From an uncultured Chloroflexus sp. (GTDB taxonomy: Bacteria > Chloroflexota > Chloroflexia > Chloroflexales > Chloroflexaceae), in the NCBI RefSeq assembly GCF_937129525.1, contig NZ_CAKZNK010000059.1, positions 1-49,662 of the forward strand: a stretch of 49,662 nucleotides of DNA, given 5' to 3'. The notes below the pieces were generated by a model, which saw only the letters and a program-made list of their open reading frames with translations, searched no databases and had not been told where the DNA came from. Made by a program: the position numbers and the translations under genes. Shown piece after piece: positions 39,865 to 47,280 of this stretch; positions within the stretch are counted from its first letter, which is position 1; each line of letters opens with the position of its first letter.

Positions 39865-40359
39865 TTAGTCTCGCCCAATTGCGGCCTCAGTCAACAAACG
39901 CACCATCTGTTCAATCGAACGGCGAGCGCGAGCGAGGGCCAGCGTCATATCGGCCAGCACTGCTTCGGCCAGAGTAAAATTCGACTGATAACTGTCGCGC
40001 AAAGCCTCGAACAGATCTTGAGCCTCTTCGAGGCTTTGCATCGCCTGGATGAGCGCATGTTCGCTATCATCACGCTGACGCGCGGCGGTCATCGGCCAGC
40101 GACCGTTAATCTCGGCGCCGCGCACAATAGCCAGATAACGTCGCATTCGCTCAGCGCAAGTCAAGGCATCATACACCGCGCGCTCAGCAGTCACGATCAA
40201 GACGCGGGCCAGATGAACATTGCGACCAAGCTCGGCGCGCACCTCATCCAGAGTACTCCTGGCCAGTTGGATATGCTGAACCGCCTCGTCCGCCACGCGG
40301 ATCAGCTCCACCCTCTCGTTCTCCAATTCGGTTGGCCAGCGGCGTGGAATCGTCGGCAT
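39865..40359 (-). CDS. All-helical protein of unknown function
   Basis: The protein is 164 residues from the ATG at 40359 (MPTIPRRWPTELENERVEL). AAGGAG lies 11 nt upstream, and a TTG at 40365 with better spacing is an alternative start. The sequence is a series of amphipathic helices (ELIRVADEAVQHIQLARSTL, DDSEHALIQAMQSLEEAQDLF) with no membrane segment and no family I recognise. Its start overlaps the end of the upstream gene by 116 bp. Through the shared promoter element at 40807 it appears co-regulated with the CHAT/FtsZ/gasdermin-like operon. Confidence 0.55.
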   Translation of the reverse strand: MPTIPRRWPTELENERVELIRVADEAVQHIQLARSTLDEVRAELGRNVHLARVLIVTAERAVYDALTCAERMRRYLAIVRGAEINGRWPMTAARQRDDSEHALIQAMQSLEEAQDLFEALRDSYQSNFTLAEAVLADMTLALARARRSIEQMVRLLTEAAIGRD

Positions 40360-40738
40360 AATCAACAGCGCTCCTTCGTGGTCGGCGCAGATACTCCTCA
40401 GCCGCGCGGCGGCGGAGCACATTCTCTCCCAGTTGCCACAAGATAATGGGGATGCCCGCAGCCACAAAACTGCGCCAGACCAGATCTTCATAACGATGCC
40501 AGTCGAGACCACCCAAACGACGGGCAGCCAGCGCAACCGGCGCTAGCGATAGAATAACGCCACCCGCGACTTCCGCCCACAAATGATCAGGCAAGACAGT
40601 AGGATAACGGCGCTGAAGCAGCTCAAGAGCCGCGGCGTAGACAGTTGACAACCCCATCACTTGTAAAGGCAACTGCACGGCGAGATGATCGGCTTCGGTC
40701 ACTGCGTTGTACTGAGCATCGTGAGTCGTTGCTTGCAT
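40244..40738 (-). CDS. Putative membrane-associated protein of unknown function
   Basis: The protein is 164 residues from the ATG at 40738, with AAAGGA 8 nt upstream. Two hydrophobic stretches (EVAGGVILSLAPVALAARRL and SFVAAGIPIILWQLGENVL) may cross or lie on the membrane. The C-terminus is charged and glycine-rich, and this part lies within the overlap with the next gene, so it may be a non-conserved extension. I recognise no family. It is transcribed divergently from the mraZ-like operon from a promoter with the same -35 and the same upstream 16-bp element. Confidence 0.5.
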   Translation of the reverse strand: MQATTHDAQYNAVTEADHLAVQLPLQVMGLSTVYAAALELLQRRYPTVLPDHLWAEVAGGVILSLAPVALAARRLGGLDWHRYEDLVWRSFVAAGIPIILWQLGENVLRRRAAEEYLRRPRRSAVDYADDSTPLANRIGEREGGADPRGGRGGSAYPTGQEYSG

Positions 40739-40800: not shown

Positions 40801-40806
40801 GCTTTT

Positions 40807-40822
40807 CGGGCATTTGTTGGGC
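40807..40822 (-). promoter_or_regulatory. 16-bp element, copy 1
   Basis: In minus orientation it reads GCCCAACAAATGCCCG, directly before the TAGACA -35 of the leftward promoter. Seen from the other strand it is two TTTGT/TGGG-type half-sites 11 bp apart, with a further decayed half-site (GTTTGTTAG) to 40833. Confidence 0.65.
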
Positions 40823-40941
40823 GTTTGTTAGCGATTGTCTTAACCTGCTCCTATCCTCCTTTCAGGCGAGCATCGCGCGCAGCGCTGAGTGACGCACTAG
40901 TATTCTGACCAGATTTGTTGTCAGCCGGTTCGCATTCATAA

Positions 40942-40958
40942 TACTACAATTTGTAGTA
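40942..40958. promoter_or_regulatory. 17-bp dyad TACTACA-N3-TGTAGTA, copy 1
   Basis: A perfect dyad with 7-bp arms, TACTACA ATT TGTAGTA, upstream of the mraZ promoter. The ACTACA...TGTAGT arms resemble operators of BlaI/MecI-type repressors, whose dyads have a TACA...TGTA core. No such repressor gene is in the window. The second copy is at 41582-41598. Confidence 0.65.
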
Positions 40959-40971
40959 AAGTCAAGACATC

Positions 40972-40987
40972 GCCCAACAAGCACCCT
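40972..40987 (+). promoter_or_regulatory. 16-bp element, copy 2
   Basis: GCCCAACAAGCACCCT, 9 bp upstream of the TAGACA -35 of the rightward promoter, in the same orientation relative to transcription as copy 1 is to the leftward promoter. Confidence 0.65.
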
Positions 40988-40996
40988 TGAACCGGC

Positions 40997-41025
40997 TAGA
41001 CAGCTCGAATATTATATGCTATAGT
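40997..41025 (+). promoter_or_regulatory. Promoter of the mraZ-like operon
   Basis: -35 TAGACA (40997-41002), 17-bp spacer, -10 TATAGT (41020-41025). The leader is about 85 nt and contains copy 3 of the 16-bp element. The whole 380-bp gap (40739-41118) is regulatory, with two divergent promoters, three element copies and one dyad. Confidence 0.7.
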
Positions 41026-41059
41026 GAGAATAGCAAAAAGTTGATAAATCCTAAAAGAA

Positions 41060-41075
41060 ACCCAACAAGTACCCT
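41060..41075 (+). promoter_or_regulatory. 16-bp element, copy 3, in the leader
   Basis: ACCCAACAAGTACCCT, 44 bp before the mraZ-like start and downstream of the transcription start. A protein bound here could act as a roadblock, suiting negative feedback if the MraZ-like protein is the ligand. Confidence 0.6.
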
Positions 41076-41118
41076 GAAACACTATCTCTAACCGCCGTTT
41101 TGATACCGCGAGGGAGCA

Positions 41119-41574
41119 ATGCTGATCGGCACATGGCAGGTATCGTTAGACGAACATGGCCGCCTGGTTCTTCCTGCGCCGATTCGTCCGGCTTTCACCA
41201 CCGGTATGGTAATTACCCGCGGCTTTGAACGCTGCTTGCAACTCTGTCCGCAATCGTTCTGGCAAGGTCTGACGCAGCGGGTTAGTCGCCTGAGCCTCGC
41301 CGGAACTGACGAGCGCTGGTTGCGCCGACTGCTGTTTGCCGAAGCGAGCGCCGCTTTGCTCGATGACCAGGCCGCAATCGTGATCTCCACCGCTCTGCGG
41401 AACTATGCCGGCCTTGACCGTGCCGCCGTGGTGGTGGGAATGGAGCAATACCTCGAAATATGGTCGCCTGAACGCTGGCAAGATTGCCAGACGAATATTC
41501 TGGCGCTGGCCGGACGCTGGTCAATCCGTGATTGGGATGTGTCAGTCCCGCCCGATAATGCGCTTTTTTTGTGA
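41119..41574 (+). CDS. MraZ-like transcription regulator
   Basis: The 151-residue protein matches MraZ in length and layout: GTWQVSLDEHGRLVLPAPIR at the start, VITRGFERCLQL, then a second half ending AVVVGMEQYLEIWSPERWQ. MraZ holds two AbrB-type motifs (DxxGR). The first is intact (D11-GR), but the second reads DDQAAIVIS and has lost its Gly-Arg. Canonical mraZ opens the dcw division cluster before rsmH and represses it by binding TGGG repeats upstream. Here none of rsmH, ftsL or ftsI follows. Instead come a CHAT protease, an amidase and an FtsZ paralogue. Autoregulation through the 16-bp elements is inferred. Confidence 0.8.
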   Translation: MLIGTWQVSLDEHGRLVLPAPIRPAFTTGMVITRGFERCLQLCPQSFWQGLTQRVSRLSLAGTDERWLRRLLFAEASAALLDDQAAIVISTALRNYAGLDRAAVVVGMEQYLEIWSPERWQDCQTNILALAGRWSIRDWDVSVPPDNALFL

Positions 41575-41581
41575 TGGTGTT

Positions 41582-41598
41582 TACTACATATTGTAGTA
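41582..41598. promoter_or_regulatory. 17-bp dyad TACTACA-N3-TGTAGTA, copy 2
   Basis: TACTACA TAT TGTAGTA, identical in its arms to copy 1 and 640 bp from it centre to centre. It lies immediately before the SD (AAAGGA, 41600-41605) of the 63-aa gene and after the mraZ stop. It may block elongation or loop with copy 1. Confidence 0.65.
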
Positions 41599-41615: not shown

Positions 41616-41807
41616 ATGTCCAGCTCCGTACTCTATCAGCCCCGCCCCGCTATCGACCGGCCAACCGGCAGCGCCGCCATCGCCCGGCAGCGCCTTTACC
41701 AGACCTTACAACGTGAACGGGTGCTCTTGCGTGAGCGCAATGCCGATCAACTGTTGTTGATCGCTTTGCTACACAGCAATGAGTCGGGGCCATCTTGCGA
41801 GGAATGA
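41616..41807 (+). CDS. Small 63-residue helical protein
   Basis: It starts at the ATG at 41616 with AAAGGA 10 nt upstream. The N-terminus is proline/serine-rich (MSSSVLYQPRPAIDRPTG). A basic amphipathic helix follows (AIARQRLYQTLQRERVLLRERN) and then a short hydrophobic patch (LLLIALLH). I recognise no family. It lies between the MraZ-like and CHAT genes in the same orientation. It could be an antitoxin-like or adaptor peptide, which is inference from position and size only. Confidence 0.55.
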   Translation: MSSSVLYQPRPAIDRPTGSAAIARQRLYQTLQRERVLLRERNADQLLLIALLHSNESGPSCEE

Positions 41808-41994: not shown

Positions 41995-43326
41995 ATGCGA
42001 TCAACATATCAGCCTGTGTTGCTTTCGATCGATTTCAGTTCGTACCACCGCGGTTTCTTCGCGCGCTGGGAGGCCAACGAGGTCATCGATATTACGCAGA
42101 GCCAAATGCCCATGCCTATCGCCGTCACCGATTTGCCGCTGGTCTTGCGCGCGCTCGACGTATTGCAGGATCCGGCCTACCCACATCCCTGGACAGATGC
42201 CCAAGAGGCAGCTTTTACCTTTACGTCGGCTGAGAAAGAGCGTCTGCGCGAACTCGATTTCTGGGACGACGGCGATCGCGTCCCGTCCGATTTGCCTCGA
42301 CGAGTCGGACGGCGACTCTTTCGCGCCCTGACCCACGATCAGCGCGGCGCCGAAGCACTGAAGATCGCGCGCAATTATGCGCTGGCCGTTGATCGACCAC
42401 TCCTCATCGCATGCCATTTCAATGCCCATGCTCAGGCCGATGTAGCGCTGGCGGCGCTACCCTGGGAGTTGCTCTGGGCCGACGAACCAACCCCACTATT
42501 GGCCGAACGACGCCTTTCAGCTTCAATTGAACGTCGCTTGAAACACACCGGTCCGCCGCCTCTACCCACTTCAGGGCAAGGTGCGCTGCGTATCCTGGCC
42601 CTTTCGCCACAGGCCGGGATCCCGCCTGAACTGCGCCAGCTTGAACGGAGCGCGCGGATGAGTGCATTGCAACCACTTCTTGAGCGCCATCTGGCCGAAG
42701 TGCGCGAACTCAGTCCGGTTTCGCGCCGTGAACTTGAACGGGTCGTGCGTGAGTGGTCTCCCGATGTCATTCATTACTACGGCCATGGACGCTACGAGCA
42801 GGGAGCCGGCGCCCTCTTGCTCGACCGCGAGAGCGGCGGTGAAGACTGGACACCACCTGGAGCATTGGCGGCGGCAGCAGGTGGAGTGCGGATGGTACTC
42901 CTTCATGCCTGTCAGGGCGCAATGGCCACACCCGGGTCTGCTTTGCTGAGCAGTGTGGCTCCCGCGCTCAGTGTTGCCGGTGTGCCGGTAGTGATTGGCA
43001 TGCAGTTTACCATTCGCGCCGATGCTGCTACCCGCATTGCCAGTATCGTTTACGCCGGCCTCGCCCAGGGACGCAGCGTCCAAGAGGCGCTGGTCGCTGC
43101 CCGCATTGCGCTCTATGTCGGTGAAACCGATCAGGTGTCATGGTTCGTGCCGGCGCTGTATGTGCGTAGTCGCAGCCTTGGACCCATCTACTTACGGCCA
43201 CCAAGTGATCAACCTCCGGCATTGACGCTCAGTCATCGGAGTTCAGGTCGTGATCCATCACCTGTTATTCGTCGGCTCCGCATTCAAGATGAATGGCTCC
43301 GCCGACGGTATGGCATTGAACTGTAA
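41995..43326 (+). CDS. CHAT-domain cysteine protease (caspase/separase-like fold)
   Basis: The protein is 443 residues from the first ATG of the frame, with a weak SD. The first 190 residues resemble the helical/beta N-terminal region often found before CHAT domains (LPWELLWADEPTPLLAERRLSASIERR). The CHAT peptidase domain spans about 195-400, with the catalytic His H264 in HYYGHGRY and Cys C306 in LLHACQGA. It ends with a typical VPVVIGMQFTI, then AALVAAR-like helix and WFVPALYV. CHAT proteases are clan CD enzymes that cleave specific partner proteins once triggered. No TPR sensor is fused. The likely substrate is the gasdermin-like protein in the same operon. Confidence 0.9.
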   Translation: MRSTYQPVLLSIDFSSYHRGFFARWEANEVIDITQSQMPMPIAVTDLPLVLRALDVLQDPAYPHPWTDAQEAAFTFTSAEKERLRELDFWDDGDRVPSDLPRRVGRRLFRALTHDQRGAEALKIARNYALAVDRPLLIACHFNAHAQADVALAALPWELLWADEPTPLLAERRLSASIERRLKHTGPPPLPTSGQGALRILALSPQAGIPPELRQLERSARMSALQPLLERHLAEVRELSPVSRRELERVVREWSPDVIHYYGHGRYEQGAGALLLDRESGGEDWTPPGALAAAAGGVRMVLLHACQGAMATPGSALLSSVAPALSVAGVPVVIGMQFTIRADAATRIASIVYAGLAQGRSVQEALVAARIALYVGETDQVSWFVPALYVRSRSLGPIYLRPPSDQPPALTLSHRSSGRDPSPVIRRLRIQDEWLRRRYGIEL

Positions 43327-43380: not shown

Positions 43381-45306
43381 ATGTATCACATCGAATGGAT
43401 CGGAATGAGCCGCGCCAATTTCAAGCCGGGAACACCTGATCGCATTCGCATGGTGGTGCTTCACGCCACCGCAGGCTCATATCCAGGCGATCTTAGATGG
43501 CTTCGCCAGGGTGGCGCGCCTGGCCGCGAGGTGTCAGTGCATTACTATATCTCCAAGCTTGGCCAGATTTTTCAACTGGTTGCCGATCGGGATATTGCAT
43601 GGCACGCCGGCACGAGTCGCTGGGAAGTCGATGGCCGTACTGTGTTCAGTTGCAACGATGTATCAATAGGCATCGAGCTGGAGAATCGCAACGATGGCCG
43701 CGATCCTTACCCGCCCGAGCAATATGCTGCTGCGCTTTGGCTGACCCGCGAGCTGGTACAGAAGTATCAGATCCCACCTTCACAGGTGGTACGGCATCTG
43801 GATATTGCGCCGGGACGCAAGACTGACCCGGCGGGCTTTCCCTGGCAACGCTTTCTCAGTGAAGTCTTTGCCAATCTGCCGGGAACACCTGCTCTGCCGC
43901 CGGGAGATCAGTTACGACAGCATATGTTTGATCTTGCCTTCCGGGCTGCCGGCAGCGGTCTGCCGACCGAATGGCCCTTCTTCACTCAGGCTCGCGCCGC
44001 CAATCTGGGAATGCCGGTAGCTTCATTAATCGCCCGGCCACTGTCACCACGTCCGGCCTCAGCGCCTAACGATCGTGAACGCGCGCTTGTCCTACCCGAC
44101 GGCACCCGTTACGTGGTCGAAGTGTACGCCCGTGATGCGCTGTTTGCTGCTGTTGGCCCTGATGATGCGCTCCACCCCGGCGCGCGCATCGAGCGGCTGA
44201 GCGCCGTTCCCGCCAGTCCACAACGGATGGCGCTGCTTGAAGCGGTCTTCCGCGCCGCCGATCCGGTAAGCGGCTTTCAGCCTGGTTGGGCTTTTCACCA
44301 GTATTTTCTCGCCCATATCGACTCTCTCGGCATGCCGATCAGCCACAATCACCGCCTGGCACTCGCGCCAGGAGTTAGCTTTGCCTGCCAGCATTTTGCG
44401 CTCGATAGTCTCTGCTCACCGGCTGGACAATGGCAGGTGATCTATCGCCTGAGTGAGATTCGTCGCGCCGCTACCGGTCAAATAACCCTCACCGGCTTGA
44501 GCCGCGCGCGAGCCACTCAACTGGCGCAACTCTTGCTCGATGATCTCTTTGCGCTGCGAACCGGTCGTCGCTACCAGGCTGACGCAGCCCTGATTCGGTA
44601 TGCGCTGGAAGAAGACCTCGGTGCGCCACTCGGCCCTGCTGAAACAGTAATGATTGATGATACGCCAGTTGCACTTATGCCCTTCGCGCTTGATGTAGTG
44701 GCTTGTCGCCTGCCAACACCAGACTGGCCGCTCGACCGTCCGCTGCCTCCGACCAGCTCTTTTGGACGGCTGACCGCACTGCTTGGCAACCATCGACAAT
44801 TTGCAACCGGTATCCTGCGGCTATCACGTCTCACCAACCAGCGTCTGCCAGCGCCATTGACTACCAGCGATCCTCTGTTGGGACCGATCCGTCAAGGCCG
44901 ACCACTAATTGATGTCAGTATGTTTGCCGGTGATGGTGAAGTTCGTCGCCGCCCGATTGACACCATCCTGCTGGTGCCAACCAGCGGACCTGCCAGCTTG
45001 CACTTAGCCGATGCTCATATCGGCGCGCGATGGCACTACTTCATCGATCATACAGGCACGGTATTCCGTCTTCGGCACGAACGTTACATCGCCCGCGCTG
45101 CTCGCGGCGTTGGCCTGCCGGCGGAACGACTCGACCAACGCGCGTTGGTGATTGCAGTAGAAGGATCGCTTAACAACGCGCCGCCGCCATTAAAGCGTGC
45201 AACTCAGGCGCTTGTGCAATTGCTGCGGCGTCATTTTCGTATCAACGCTGACCGACTGCGCGTGATCGATCACACTGCGCGCGCGACACTCGTTGAAATC
45301 GAGTAA
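43381..45306 (+). CDS. N-acetylmuramoyl-L-alanine amidase with repeats and a degenerate second amidase domain
   Basis: The protein is 641 residues from the ATG at 43381 (GAGGTG 4 nt upstream; an in-frame ATG at 43351 is possible). The N-terminal Amidase_2/PGRP domain (1-160) has the full AmpD-like set: zinc ligands H28, H139 and D149, plus E99 and K147. It cuts the peptide from peptidoglycan. Next come three related modules near residues 180-285, 300-390 and 405-455, each with F..A...W.F.QY..LG.P followed by a strand ending YARDAL or FALDSL. The C-terminus (about 525-641, starting IDTILLVPTSGP, HYFIDHTGTVFRL) matches a second amidase fold that has lost its zinc ligands. No signal peptide is visible, so it may act only after lysis or membrane permeabilisation. 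Confidence 0.88.
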   Translation: MYHIEWIGMSRANFKPGTPDRIRMVVLHATAGSYPGDLRWLRQGGAPGREVSVHYYISKLGQIFQLVADRDIAWHAGTSRWEVDGRTVFSCNDVSIGIELENRNDGRDPYPPEQYAAALWLTRELVQKYQIPPSQVVRHLDIAPGRKTDPAGFPWQRFLSEVFANLPGTPALPPGDQLRQHMFDLAFRAAGSGLPTEWPFFTQARAANLGMPVASLIARPLSPRPASAPNDRERALVLPDGTRYVVEVYARDALFAAVGPDDALHPGARIERLSAVPASPQRMALLEAVFRAADPVSGFQPGWAFHQYFLAHIDSLGMPISHNHRLALAPGVSFACQHFALDSLCSPAGQWQVIYRLSEIRRAATGQITLTGLSRARATQLAQLLLDDLFALRTGRRYQADAALIRYALEEDLGAPLGPAETVMIDDTPVALMPFALDVVACRLPTPDWPLDRPLPPTSSFGRLTALLGNHRQFATGILRLSRLTNQRLPAPLTTSDPLLGPIRQGRPLIDVSMFAGDGEVRRRPIDTILLVPTSGPASLHLADAHIGARWHYFIDHTGTVFRLRHERYIARAARGVGLPAERLDQRALVIAVEGSLNNAPPPLKRATQALVQLLRRHFRINADRLRVIDHTARATLVEIE

Positions 45307-45337: not shown

Positions 45338-46438
45338 ATGCAATCCACAAGCACGACACTTCCATCGCACCCACCGATTAACATTAAACTTGTCGGTCTT
45401 GGTGGCTGTGGCGGAAATCTGGTCAGCGCCATCCGGTTACCCTCTGCTCAGGTCGATATGATCGTTGCCAACACCGATCAACAAGACCTGGTCGGACGGG
45501 TCAATATTCCGACTCGTATCCTCCTGGGGCCTCAACACACTGCCGGCAAAGGCGCTGGCGGTGTGCCTGAAGTGGGTGCCGCCGCCACCCGCGAGAGCGA
45601 ACCCGTTCTGGCTAAAGCTCTCACCGGAGCGGATCTCGTGGTACTTGTCGCCGGGATGGGTGGCGGCACCGGCACCGGCGCTGCGCCAATTGTCGCTCGA
45701 TTAGCGCGCCAGCTCGGTGCGCTCACGCTAGCCTTCGTCACCATGCCTTTCCTGGTCGAAAAAGGCCAGCGCAGTCGCGCTGCTGAACAGGGTCTGGCTG
45801 CACTAACAGAGGCTGCCGATGCAGTGGTTGTTGTTTCTAATCAAAAGATTCTCAATTTTGTCGATCCACGTGAAACGTTGACCAAAGCGCTGACCTACAG
45901 CAATACCATTTTGAGCGCAGCTATCAGTGGAGTGATTGAACAGCTTTCGTTGCCCTCGCTGATGCAGCTCGATTTCTCTCACGTGCGGCAAACGCTGAGC
46001 AATGCCGGACAGACAATGCTCGGTATCGGCAGTGCCAGCGGCAACGATGCCGCTCAGCGCGCAGTGCAGCAGGCGCTCAAATGTGATTTGCTAGAAGGCA
46101 ATTTAATGAAGGCCAAGCGCATCTTCGTCTCAATTATTGGCGGTAATAACCTGGGATTGCACGACGTGAGTCGCGCTATCGATAACATACACCAGACAAT
46201 CGACAATGATATCAATCCGGTGATCGGGGTGGCAAATTCACCGGCTCTGAATCATCAGGACCGCGTGCGTGTCACGTTGATCGCCAGCAAAGTTGGCTCA
46301 TTCCGCCGGCTACACCATACAATGACAACGCAGCCACCATCAGGATCAACTCGCGCAGATCAGCCATCACTTGCGTTCACCCAAGATCAAGAAAACCTTC
46401 CACCCTTCTTGAAGTTATACCGAAGAGGGAAAGTATGA
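45338..46438 (+). CDS. Divergent FtsZ paralogue (tubulin-like GTPase)
   Basis: The protein is 366 residues from the ATG at 45338 (GGGAG just upstream; an ATG at 45320 is possible). FtsZ motifs are LVGLGGCGGN, GKGAGGVPEVG, the GTP loop GGGTGTG (108-114) and FVTMPFLVEKGQRSRAAEQGL. The catalytic T7 loop NxDFxD is here Q210-L-D212-F-S-H215, so the asparagine and the second aspartate (E. coli D212) are changed. The C-terminal peptide LPPFLKLYRRGK (355-366) keeps the form of the FtsZ tail that docks on membrane anchors. It should bind GTP and join filaments but hydrolyse poorly. It is probably not the housekeeping FtsZ. Confidence 0.88.
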   Translation: MQSTSTTLPSHPPINIKLVGLGGCGGNLVSAIRLPSAQVDMIVANTDQQDLVGRVNIPTRILLGPQHTAGKGAGGVPEVGAAATRESEPVLAKALTGADLVVLVAGMGGGTGTGAAPIVARLARQLGALTLAFVTMPFLVEKGQRSRAAEQGLAALTEAADAVVVVSNQKILNFVDPRETLTKALTYSNTILSAAISGVIEQLSLPSLMQLDFSHVRQTLSNAGQTMLGIGSASGNDAAQRAVQQALKCDLLEGNLMKAKRIFVSIIGGNNLGLHDVSRAIDNIHQTIDNDINPVIGVANSPALNHQDRVRVTLIASKVGSFRRLHHTMTTQPPSGSTRADQPSLAFTQDQENLPPFLKLYRRGKV

Positions 46439-47280
46439 TCCTGCATCTATGCACGAACGATCCACTTGTTTCACTTGTGCATGATCTATTCGGAGCAAAC
46501 CCGGTGCGTGTGCCAGACGCCCGCATCCGACCGCTCTCAGTTGTCGTCCATCGCCGCGGACGCAGCATCTTTCGTGGCTCGCTGTTACCATTGCTCACCG
46601 ATTCCAGCCCGCTCAGCGTACAGCCCTCAGTATCACAATTGATCGACATCAGCGGTCGCCGATCGCGGCGCGTCAATCTTGAGCTGGGCTTAAACATTTT
46701 GCGCGGTTTTCTCTACGGTTTTGGTCTGCCCACTGCCACTTTCACAACCTCCGTGCAGGGAGCAACAACCATCACCTTCTCATTCCCCACTGCGATGCGC
46801 CTCGCCTATGACGTGAATGCGCTCGGTTGGGCCCTGGCTGGACGCGCCATCGATCGCACCAATCCGGCAGCGGCGATCTTGTTCGAGCAGACACCTTATG
46901 AATTGTTGTTGATCGACTCGATTCTGACCAGCCGCCATCTCACGATCACCTTCAGCGGCGCGCAGGGACAACAATTAAATGTCGACATCAATGCGCTTCG
47001 CCAAATGCTCGGCGATCTTGGTGGTCATGCCAGTATTAACAACGATGCCGATCTGGAAATCACCCTTGCCAGCCCACACGACTTAACCTTCGCTTTCTCC
47101 TGTGTGCGACTTTTCTTCAATGACGAAGGATATATCACTACACTTCCGCCTGATCTCGACCGGCGCGTGCTTAACAGCAGAAATGATGTCAGTGTACGAT
47201 ATAGCCCGGATCGTGTGATGTTAAGCAAACAACCAGGTCTATTGATCTGGGATCGCGCAGAGCAGAGGAGCAAACCGTGA
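46435..47280 (+). CDS. Probable bacterial gasdermin (pore-forming cell-death effector)
   Basis: This 281-residue protein starts within the FtsZ-like stop (ATGA), with GAGGGA 5 nt upstream. The start MILHLCTNDPLVSLV fits the bacterial gasdermin pattern: a near-terminal cysteine (C6) for palmitoylation, then a helix, then PVRVPDARIRPLSVVV and an ISG-type strand (DISGRRSRR). Long amphipathic beta stretches follow (ATTITFSFPTAMRLAYDV; LTFAFSCVRLFF). A charged tail after about residue 230 could be the inhibitory peptide removed by a protease. Known bacterial gasdermins are 250-300 residues and lie beside proteases, as here. The call rests on pattern memory and context; an unrelated beta-rich protein remains possible. 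Confidence 0.6.
   Translation: MILHLCTNDPLVSLVHDLFGANPVRVPDARIRPLSVVVHRRGRSIFRGSLLPLLTDSSPLSVQPSVSQLIDISGRRSRRVNLELGLNILRGFLYGFGLPTATFTTSVQGATTITFSFPTAMRLAYDVNALGWALAGRAIDRTNPAAAILFEQTPYELLLIDSILTSRHLTITFSGAQGQQLNVDINALRQMLGDLGGHASINNDADLEITLASPHDLTFAFSCVRLFFNDEGYITTLPPDLDRRVLNSRNDVSVRYSPDRVMLSKQPGLLIWDRAEQRSKP

Follow-up and report, generated by a model that had tools for sequence, protein, structure and literature searches.

Gene content of the gasdermin operon

The window, by which we mean the whole stretch of 49,662 nucleotides of Chloroflexus DNA that was analysed, contains an operon that starts with a gene for an MraZ-like protein of 151 residues (41119–41574, plus strand; PF02381, E 1.5e-25). 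The second gene (41616–41807, plus strand) encodes a 63-residue protein, the GSAx[IV]ARQRL core of which occurs in 6/8 Chloroflexus genomes; the gene has five codons in genome G003 and is different in G006. It is followed by genes for a CHAT protease (41995–43326, plus strand; PF12770, E 7.7e-20; PADLOC chat, E 3.7e-99), an N-acetylmuramoyl-L-alanine amidase of the Amidase_2 family (43381–45306, plus strand; PF01510, E 6.3e-41), a paralogue of FtsZ/tubulin (45338–46438, plus strand; PF00091, E 6e-38; PF12327, FtsZ_C, E 3e-18), and a bacterial gasdermin (bGSDM) of 281 residues (46435–47280, plus strand). The gasdermin was recognised by the PADLOC bGSDM profile (E 3.5e-74) and by its similarity to PDB entries 8sl0 and 7n51 (E ~1e-14), and a Pfam search alone gave no match for its gene. 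The CHAT protein had no match in the PDB; its translation contains the motifs HYYGHG and HACQG, which presumably hold the catalytic histidine and cysteine.

A bGSDM homologue and a caspase-like protease (CHAT), two marks of a gasdermin system, stand in one operon. Judged by homology, the operon is a bacterial gasdermin module composed of the MraZ-like protein, the small protein, CHAT, Amidase_2, the FtsZ paralogue, and bGSDM. The lysis module that a sequence-only reading of this DNA had supposed here is plausible in the light of the gasdermin, CHAT protease and amidase. Gasdermin matches were found in 22 of 61 genomes, comprising all eight of Chloroflexus and 14 from other genera (fragments only in G013).

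Two conserved dyads flank the mraZ-like gene

The mraZ-like gene lies between two exact 17-bp inverted repeats, neither of which is assigned to a strand. Dyad 1 (40942–40958, TACTACA-ATT-TGTAGTA) is the candidate upstream operator O1. Dyad 2 (41582–41598, TACTACA-TAT-TGTAGTA), located between the mraZ-like gene and gene 2, is the candidate internal operator O3. The pair had been described in the sequence-only reading, and both its perfection and the distance of 640 bp from start to start were confirmed in the window. Allowing up to three mismatches, the two dyads are the sole matches to TACTACA-N3-TGTAGTA in the window (mean of shuffled sequences 0.32). The genome from which the window comes (G000; 4,479,672 bases) contains two exact copies, both at the operon, and one match to the reversed control pattern.

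Exact dyads are present in 9/61 genomes, the set being formed by G000 and 60 relatives. The eight Chloroflexus genomes hold 15 exact copies, and by coordinates all 15 belong to the orthologous operon, so the dyad accompanies these operons and is not scattered genome-wide, in keeping with the sequence-only reading. Two other sites were assessed by eye: the exact dyad in G037, from another family, has an unrelated setting near the start of a glycosyltransferase-like gene, and a one-mismatch site at C92:38235 resembles an extended -10 element.

An alignment of the eight Chloroflexus sequences on the dyads shows no variation in any of the 14 arm columns of dyad 1, and its centre is variable. Dyad 2 is exact in 7/8 Chloroflexus. 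In G003, it is replaced by three tandem copies with two mismatches apiece, every one of which is followed by a Shine-Dalgarno sequence and a start codon. The copies are contained in a unit of ~120 bp, repeated three times in tandem (L094:1313-1568), that includes dyad 2, the Shine-Dalgarno sequence, and the start codon. G006 has one further copy of dyad 2 with one mismatch. The mraZ stop codon is separated from dyad 2 by 7 bp in 8/8 Chloroflexus, and directly 3' of the dyad stands GAAAGG-N11-ATG of gene 2, which bears out its earlier placement just before the Shine-Dalgarno sequence of that gene. The distance between the dyads across the eight genomes is 612–640 bp, with no clear helical phase (R = 0.43, n = 8). 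The two 17-bp dyads are real and conserved.

In the comparisons we also used the relaxed pattern TACKA-N7-TMGTA, which fits both the operon dyads and the blaI sites described below. At the mraZ stop codon in other genera, nothing within two mismatches of this pattern was found in the five genomes checked (5/5).

Promoters and repeats of the divergent intergenic region

A gene for a 164-residue protein (40244–40738, minus strand; no Pfam family above the cut-off) diverges from the operon. Of the 21 stretches searched, 19 contain it on the minus strand, with 49–100% identity, and the stretches of G017 and G029, which gave no hit, both start inside the operon. The protein possibly belongs to the gasdermin system.

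Dyad 1 covers the spacer and two -10 bases of a leftward promoter-like sequence, TTGACT-N16-TATTAT (40938–40965, minus strand). The corresponding TTGACW-N16-TATTAT has 10–11 of the 12 consensus letters in 7/8 Chloroflexus, a score that shuffled sequences reach in 0–2% of trials; the sequence of G006 has 9/12, reached in 14%. In other genera, the same place offers leftward sequences with a -35 of the TTGC/TTGT type, a 17-bp spacer, and 7–9/12 consensus letters, each being the best of many placements scored with no shuffle control, and in G033 another placement ties in score. A rightward promoter at dyad 1, with TATAAT abutting the dyad in 5/8 Chloroflexus, was rejected in favour of the leftward one because its best scores are reached by 10–52% of shuffles. 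Promoters at dyad 2 were likewise discarded in either direction, with best scores reached by 18–94% of shuffles across 8/8 Chloroflexus.

The promoter-like sequence of the operon, TAGACA-N17-TATAGT (40997–41025, plus strand), has 10/12 consensus letters and a TG preceding the -10. Dyad 1 is situated upstream of it, as the sequence-only reading had it, and leaves it uncovered because 38 bp separate the end of the dyad from the rightward -35. The 22 gasdermin-positive genomes gave 19 promoter regions for comparison, excluding those of G013 (fragments only) and of G017 and G029 (stretches starting inside the operon). For G027 and G035, we took the promoter from a contig with mraZ that is distinct from the one with the gasdermin gene, and assigned it to the operon because of the matching promoter and divergent gene in both genomes and a gene-2-like start in G035. 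All 19 promoters, which were anchored on TATAGT for the comparison, have a -35-like hexamer (TAGACR, TTAACA, TCGACA or TTCACA) 17 bp upstream of it.

The rightward -10 is overlaid by a degenerate dyad, O2 (TATTATATGCTATAGTG, 41010–41026, no strand assigned), with two mismatches to TACKA-N7-TMGTA. The mismatch count is one in the seven other Chloroflexus, making the dyad degenerate in 8/8 overall. The site is nearer consensus in other genera, where 10 of the 11 genomes compared have ACKA-N7-TAGT (G033 fails ACKA), and degraded in Chloroflexus. At 16/19 operon promoters there is an upstream dyad that departs from TACKA-N7-TMGTA by no more than one mismatch; the weak ones are those of G011 and G033, with two mismatches, and G026, with three. 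From the start of dyad 1 to the -10 dyad there are 64–68 bp in Chloroflexus and 88–107 bp elsewhere, where the best upstream match was taken. Both the leftward promoter-like sequence at dyad 1 and the degenerate dyad at the rightward -10 had been missed in the sequence-only reading.

The intergenic region also contains direct repeats. The repeat D1, GGGTGCTTGTTGGG in minus-strand letters (40973–40992, minus strand), has a second copy at 41061–41080 on the minus strand, the corresponding place of which is occupied by ACCCAACAA in 7/8 Chloroflexus. Conserved repeats of the GGGTNCTTGTTGGG type stand at 40803–40831, 40973–40992, and 41061–41080 of the window, and have an 11-bp tandem spacing in G003, G005, G012, and G018. 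We take these direct repeats to resemble MraZ boxes, and the MraZ-like protein probably autoregulates through them, separately from the dyads. In dcw operons, which are controlled by MraZ, mraZ is the first gene and conserved direct repeats lie upstream. The Chloroflexus operon shares with them the MraZ-like first gene and the upstream direct repeats; however, it encodes a death module instead of a division and wall cluster, and its dyads are inverted, not direct.

A related motif upstream of blaI

G000 has one full-length gene of the BlaI/MecI family, on contig C72 (PF03965, E 2.1e-29 in one search and 7.8e-30, over profile positions 1-114/115, in another). The Penicillinase_R winged helix extends over the full length of the protein, which places it in this family. 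A second PF03965 match, on C34, is partial (2-59, E 1.1e-4) and belongs to a regulator-like protein of 237 residues. The nearest solved relative of the C72 protein is 2g9w (E 7.2e-14), which we take to be BlaI of M. tuberculosis, a protein that has BlaR1 as its partner. Chloroflexus BlaI resembles M. tuberculosis BlaI, Rv1846c (PMC12565901), in its recognition region (AYTTVM).

The blaI gene of G000 adjoins a divergent polyprenyl-synthetase gene. The sequence TACGACA-AAT-TATCGTA is positioned 140 bp before the blaI ATG and 58–94 bp from the start of the polyprenyl-synthetase gene, a range that reflects the choice of start codon. BlaI was searched for in the 61 genomes, and all except G028 and G059 gave a match, so that 59 upstream windows of 318–360 bp were available. 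The pattern TACKA-N7-TMGTA occurs in 23/59 of them, that is, in 23/36 inside the family and 0/23 outside, related genomes being mutually non-independent; the count for Chloroflexus (7/8) is not independent because the pattern was shaped on sight of the Chloroflexus sites, and those for other genera are partly independent because the spacing was recognised by eye ahead of the formal count. Control spacers of 2–6 and 8–15 were found in 0–1 of the 59 windows, and three control arm pairs likewise in 0–1. Markov resampling produced the pattern in 5 of 7200 windows. In 30 blaI loci, with a total of 99,704 bases, the pattern occurs 18 times, a number equal to that of the upstream regions with a hit (18/30). 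Within this evidence, the comparison of spacers is the more solid element.

Measured against the strict pattern TACTACANNNTGTAGTA, 3–4 mismatches are seen at the blaI sites, a level that shuffled sequences reach in 1–22% of cases (61% for G002), and the link between blaI and the operon therefore rests on the relaxed motif. Versions of 16 bp (N2) and 18 bp (N4) at the eight Chloroflexus blaI promoters performed no better than shuffles. The site is absent in G002 and in 13/36 family genomes. The sequence-only reading proposed looking for a BlaI/MecI-family gene whose own promoter carries the dyad, and in the relaxed form TACKA-N7-TMGTA such a gene exists.

A search for BlaR1 (Peptidase_M56, PF05569) at E 0.001 gave no match in 8/8 Chloroflexus, whereas control searches matched in 9/14 genomes, above the cut-off in two. 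The open reading frames beside blaI include no BlaR1-like gene, and Pfam identified no beta-lactamase or PBP domain in the operon proteins. The link to a BlaR1 protease-sensor, which the sequence-only reading had invoked, is not borne out by these searches.

Comparison with known operators and gasdermin operons

Classical CopY/BlaI/MecI operators have an N2 spacing, with the form TACANNTGTA, and that of CopY is RNYKACANNTGTMRNY (PMC7253601). The Chloroflexus half-sites TACTACA/TGTAGTA likewise contain TACA/TGTA, and the arrangement of paired dyads together with a site at the promoter region of the regulator gene is also shared. In contrast, both window dyads have N3 (17 bp) in place of N2 (16 bp), and neither contains the classical TACA-N2-TGTA core. 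The resemblance to BlaI/MecI operators that had been noted earlier holds for the half-sites and fails for the spacer. Unlike the classical BlaI/MecI system, Chloroflexus gave no BlaR1 match and the operon contains no beta-lactamase or PBP2a target. We class the dyads as BlaI-type operators, and not as members of the beta-lactamase BlaI/BlaR1 system, because of the shared motif and promoter.

The geometry has a closer parallel in Clostridium thermocellum. As described in PMC8457756, BlaI_0696 recognises GTCTAT inverted repeats five nucleotides apart, in a 17-bp geometry; it has two dyads per target, one of its targets is its own promoter, and the regulons are very small. Both C. thermocellum BlaI proteins studied there are self-regulating. 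The odd-centred 17-bp inverted repeat and the paired dyads are common to BlaI_0696 and Chloroflexus, but C. thermocellum BlaI differs in its half-site, in having BlaR1 neighbours, and in its targets, which are sensory and wall genes and not gasdermin (PMC8457756).

The gasdermin module itself is already known, as a 2022 review shows an Oscillochloris gasdermin operon, and the legend of its Figure 2 names caspase/CHAT, NACHT, C-type lectin/FGE, amidase, and tubulin (FtsZ) among the domains drawn (PMC9612521). The word "transcription" is absent from the text of that review. Judged by their titles, the open-access publications among the matches listed include none on the regulation of the Chloroflexus gasdermin operon.

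In G036 (L125:1925-5098) and G010 (L130:5487-8645, minus strand), a protein of 1052–1057 residues with NACHT and FGE-sulfatase (C-type-lectin-like) domains is encoded between the promoter region and the CHAT gene. In a search of 37 genomes, near-full-length matches to this NACHT-FGE protein, with E reported as 0, came from G008, G010, G011, G012, and G018, while the match in G017 was partial; no gasdermin match accompanies the one in G008. The best match in Chloroflexus is partial (7.8e-47), and two of the eight genomes have none at 1e-20. The Chloroflexus operons leave no room for a NACHT-FGE gene because less than 0.7 kb separates dyad 2 from the opening of the CHAT frame (8/8), and in this they differ from the operons whose domains are listed in the legend in PMC9612521. 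Within this one genus, the missing NACHT-FGE gene correlates with the presence of dyad 2.

Proposed control of the gasdermin operon

The dyads probably bind a repressor of the cell-wall-stress type that holds back the bacterial gasdermin operon. From the wall-stress reading proposed earlier, the motif at blaI and the lysis module are retained, and the link to BlaR1 is given up. With moderate confidence, we infer that the repressor is an orphan BlaI/MecI-family protein, encoded elsewhere in the genome (G000:C72), which takes the dyads as its operators and represses the divergent promoters. A BlaI dimer on dyad 1 would cover the leftward promoter's spacer and thereby repress the divergent gene, and a weaker second site over the rightward -10 would allow repression of the gasdermin operon. 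Dyad 2, so far seen in Chloroflexus only, lies between mraZ and the effectors, where it would serve as an additional roadblock or anchor for a loop and would keep the CHAT protease, amidase, FtsZ paralogue, and gasdermin silent despite leakage from the mraZ promoter. Looping or an intragenic block by the two dyads, which the sequence-only reading had mentioned, is possible, but draws no support from the helical phasing.

It is unlikely, though the strongest of the alternatives, that a different dimeric regulator controls both the gasdermin operon and the intergenic region of blaI and the polyprenyl-synthetase gene through the dyads. The common motif implies co-regulation and leaves the binder unnamed, and the blaI site also stands 58–94 bp from the polyprenyl-synthetase start. 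A family-f4 BlaI has an identical recognition-helix region, AYTTVMTTMSRL, although the exact motif occurs in 0/23 non-family genomes, so this region is conserved also in genomes lacking the site. It may be for the divergent polyprenyl-synthetase gene, or for another regulator, that the blaI sites have been conserved. Nevertheless, BlaI adjoins the site in 23/36 family genomes, and self-regulation of both BlaI proteins studied in C. thermocellum (PMC8457756) also speaks for BlaI. Among the genes examined around the operon, moreover, MraZ alone comes from a family known to bind DNA, and the repeats that we attribute to it are direct ones, distinct from the dyads.

We consider still less probable an activating role at the rightward promoter for BlaI or some other protein bound to dyad 1, with dyad 2 as a secondary site. 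An activator would suit the position of dyad 1, which starts 64–68 bp ahead of the -10 dyad, as well as the weak Chloroflexus -35 (TAGACR). However, a strong leftward promoter-like sequence lies under dyad 1, the rightward -10 of other genera shares bases with an operator-like dyad, and the characterised BlaI-family proteins in the literature covered are repressors.

The location of dyad 2 within the mRNA, right before a Shine-Dalgarno sequence, and its tandem copies with Shine-Dalgarno sequence and start codon in G003 and G006 could also point to an RNA hairpin that acts in processing or in translational control of gene 2, dyad 1 being a mere lookalike. This is very improbable. Identical arms are invariant at dyad 1, upstream of the rightward promoter, and a role in RNA only is rejected because dyad 1 is outside the rightward transcript; furthermore, gene 2 of G003 is down to a few codons, yet the dyads are kept. 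Chance palindromes or a mobile repeat can be dismissed, for although one match or so would be expected in each genome (the eight Chloroflexus genomes contain seven matches to the reversed control pattern), 15/15 exact copies are at one operon, the arms are invariant with variable spacers, and the similarity shared by the two dyads in the window ends at most two bases beyond the dyad itself.

The preferred reading, repression by an orphan BlaI, can be extended. We speculate, with considerable doubt, that a BlaI devoid of BlaR1 locks the gasdermin operon in Chloroflexus, where the NACHT-FGE gene was lost and an extra operator gained, and that envelope or division stress arms the system in place of a protein sensor. 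A narrow, conserved set of operators shared with a BlaI-family repressor provides a testable link between the state of the envelope and division and a death module of pore and amidase. It further suggests targets outside antibiotic resistance for BlaI repressors that lack BlaR1.

Further motif sites

In G000, exact matches to TACKACANNNTRTMGTA on either strand are found at four places: two at the operon, one at blaI, and one on contig C60. The C60 site (G000:C60:16127-16143; L007:1501), TACTACAAAATATCGTA, is located between genes for a Rieske protein and a PspC protein, and the same 17-mer is present in G005 and G007. Another site, TACGACARTATRTAGTT, with 1-2 mismatches (G000:C42:14971-14987; L179:2472), is kept in 8/8 Chloroflexus. 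In G000, it lies upstream of a gene for a TPR protein, with a gene for an RsbW-like HATPase after it and a gene for a SpoIIE phosphatase before it. The site at the TPR-protein operon is a candidate for a further BlaI target.
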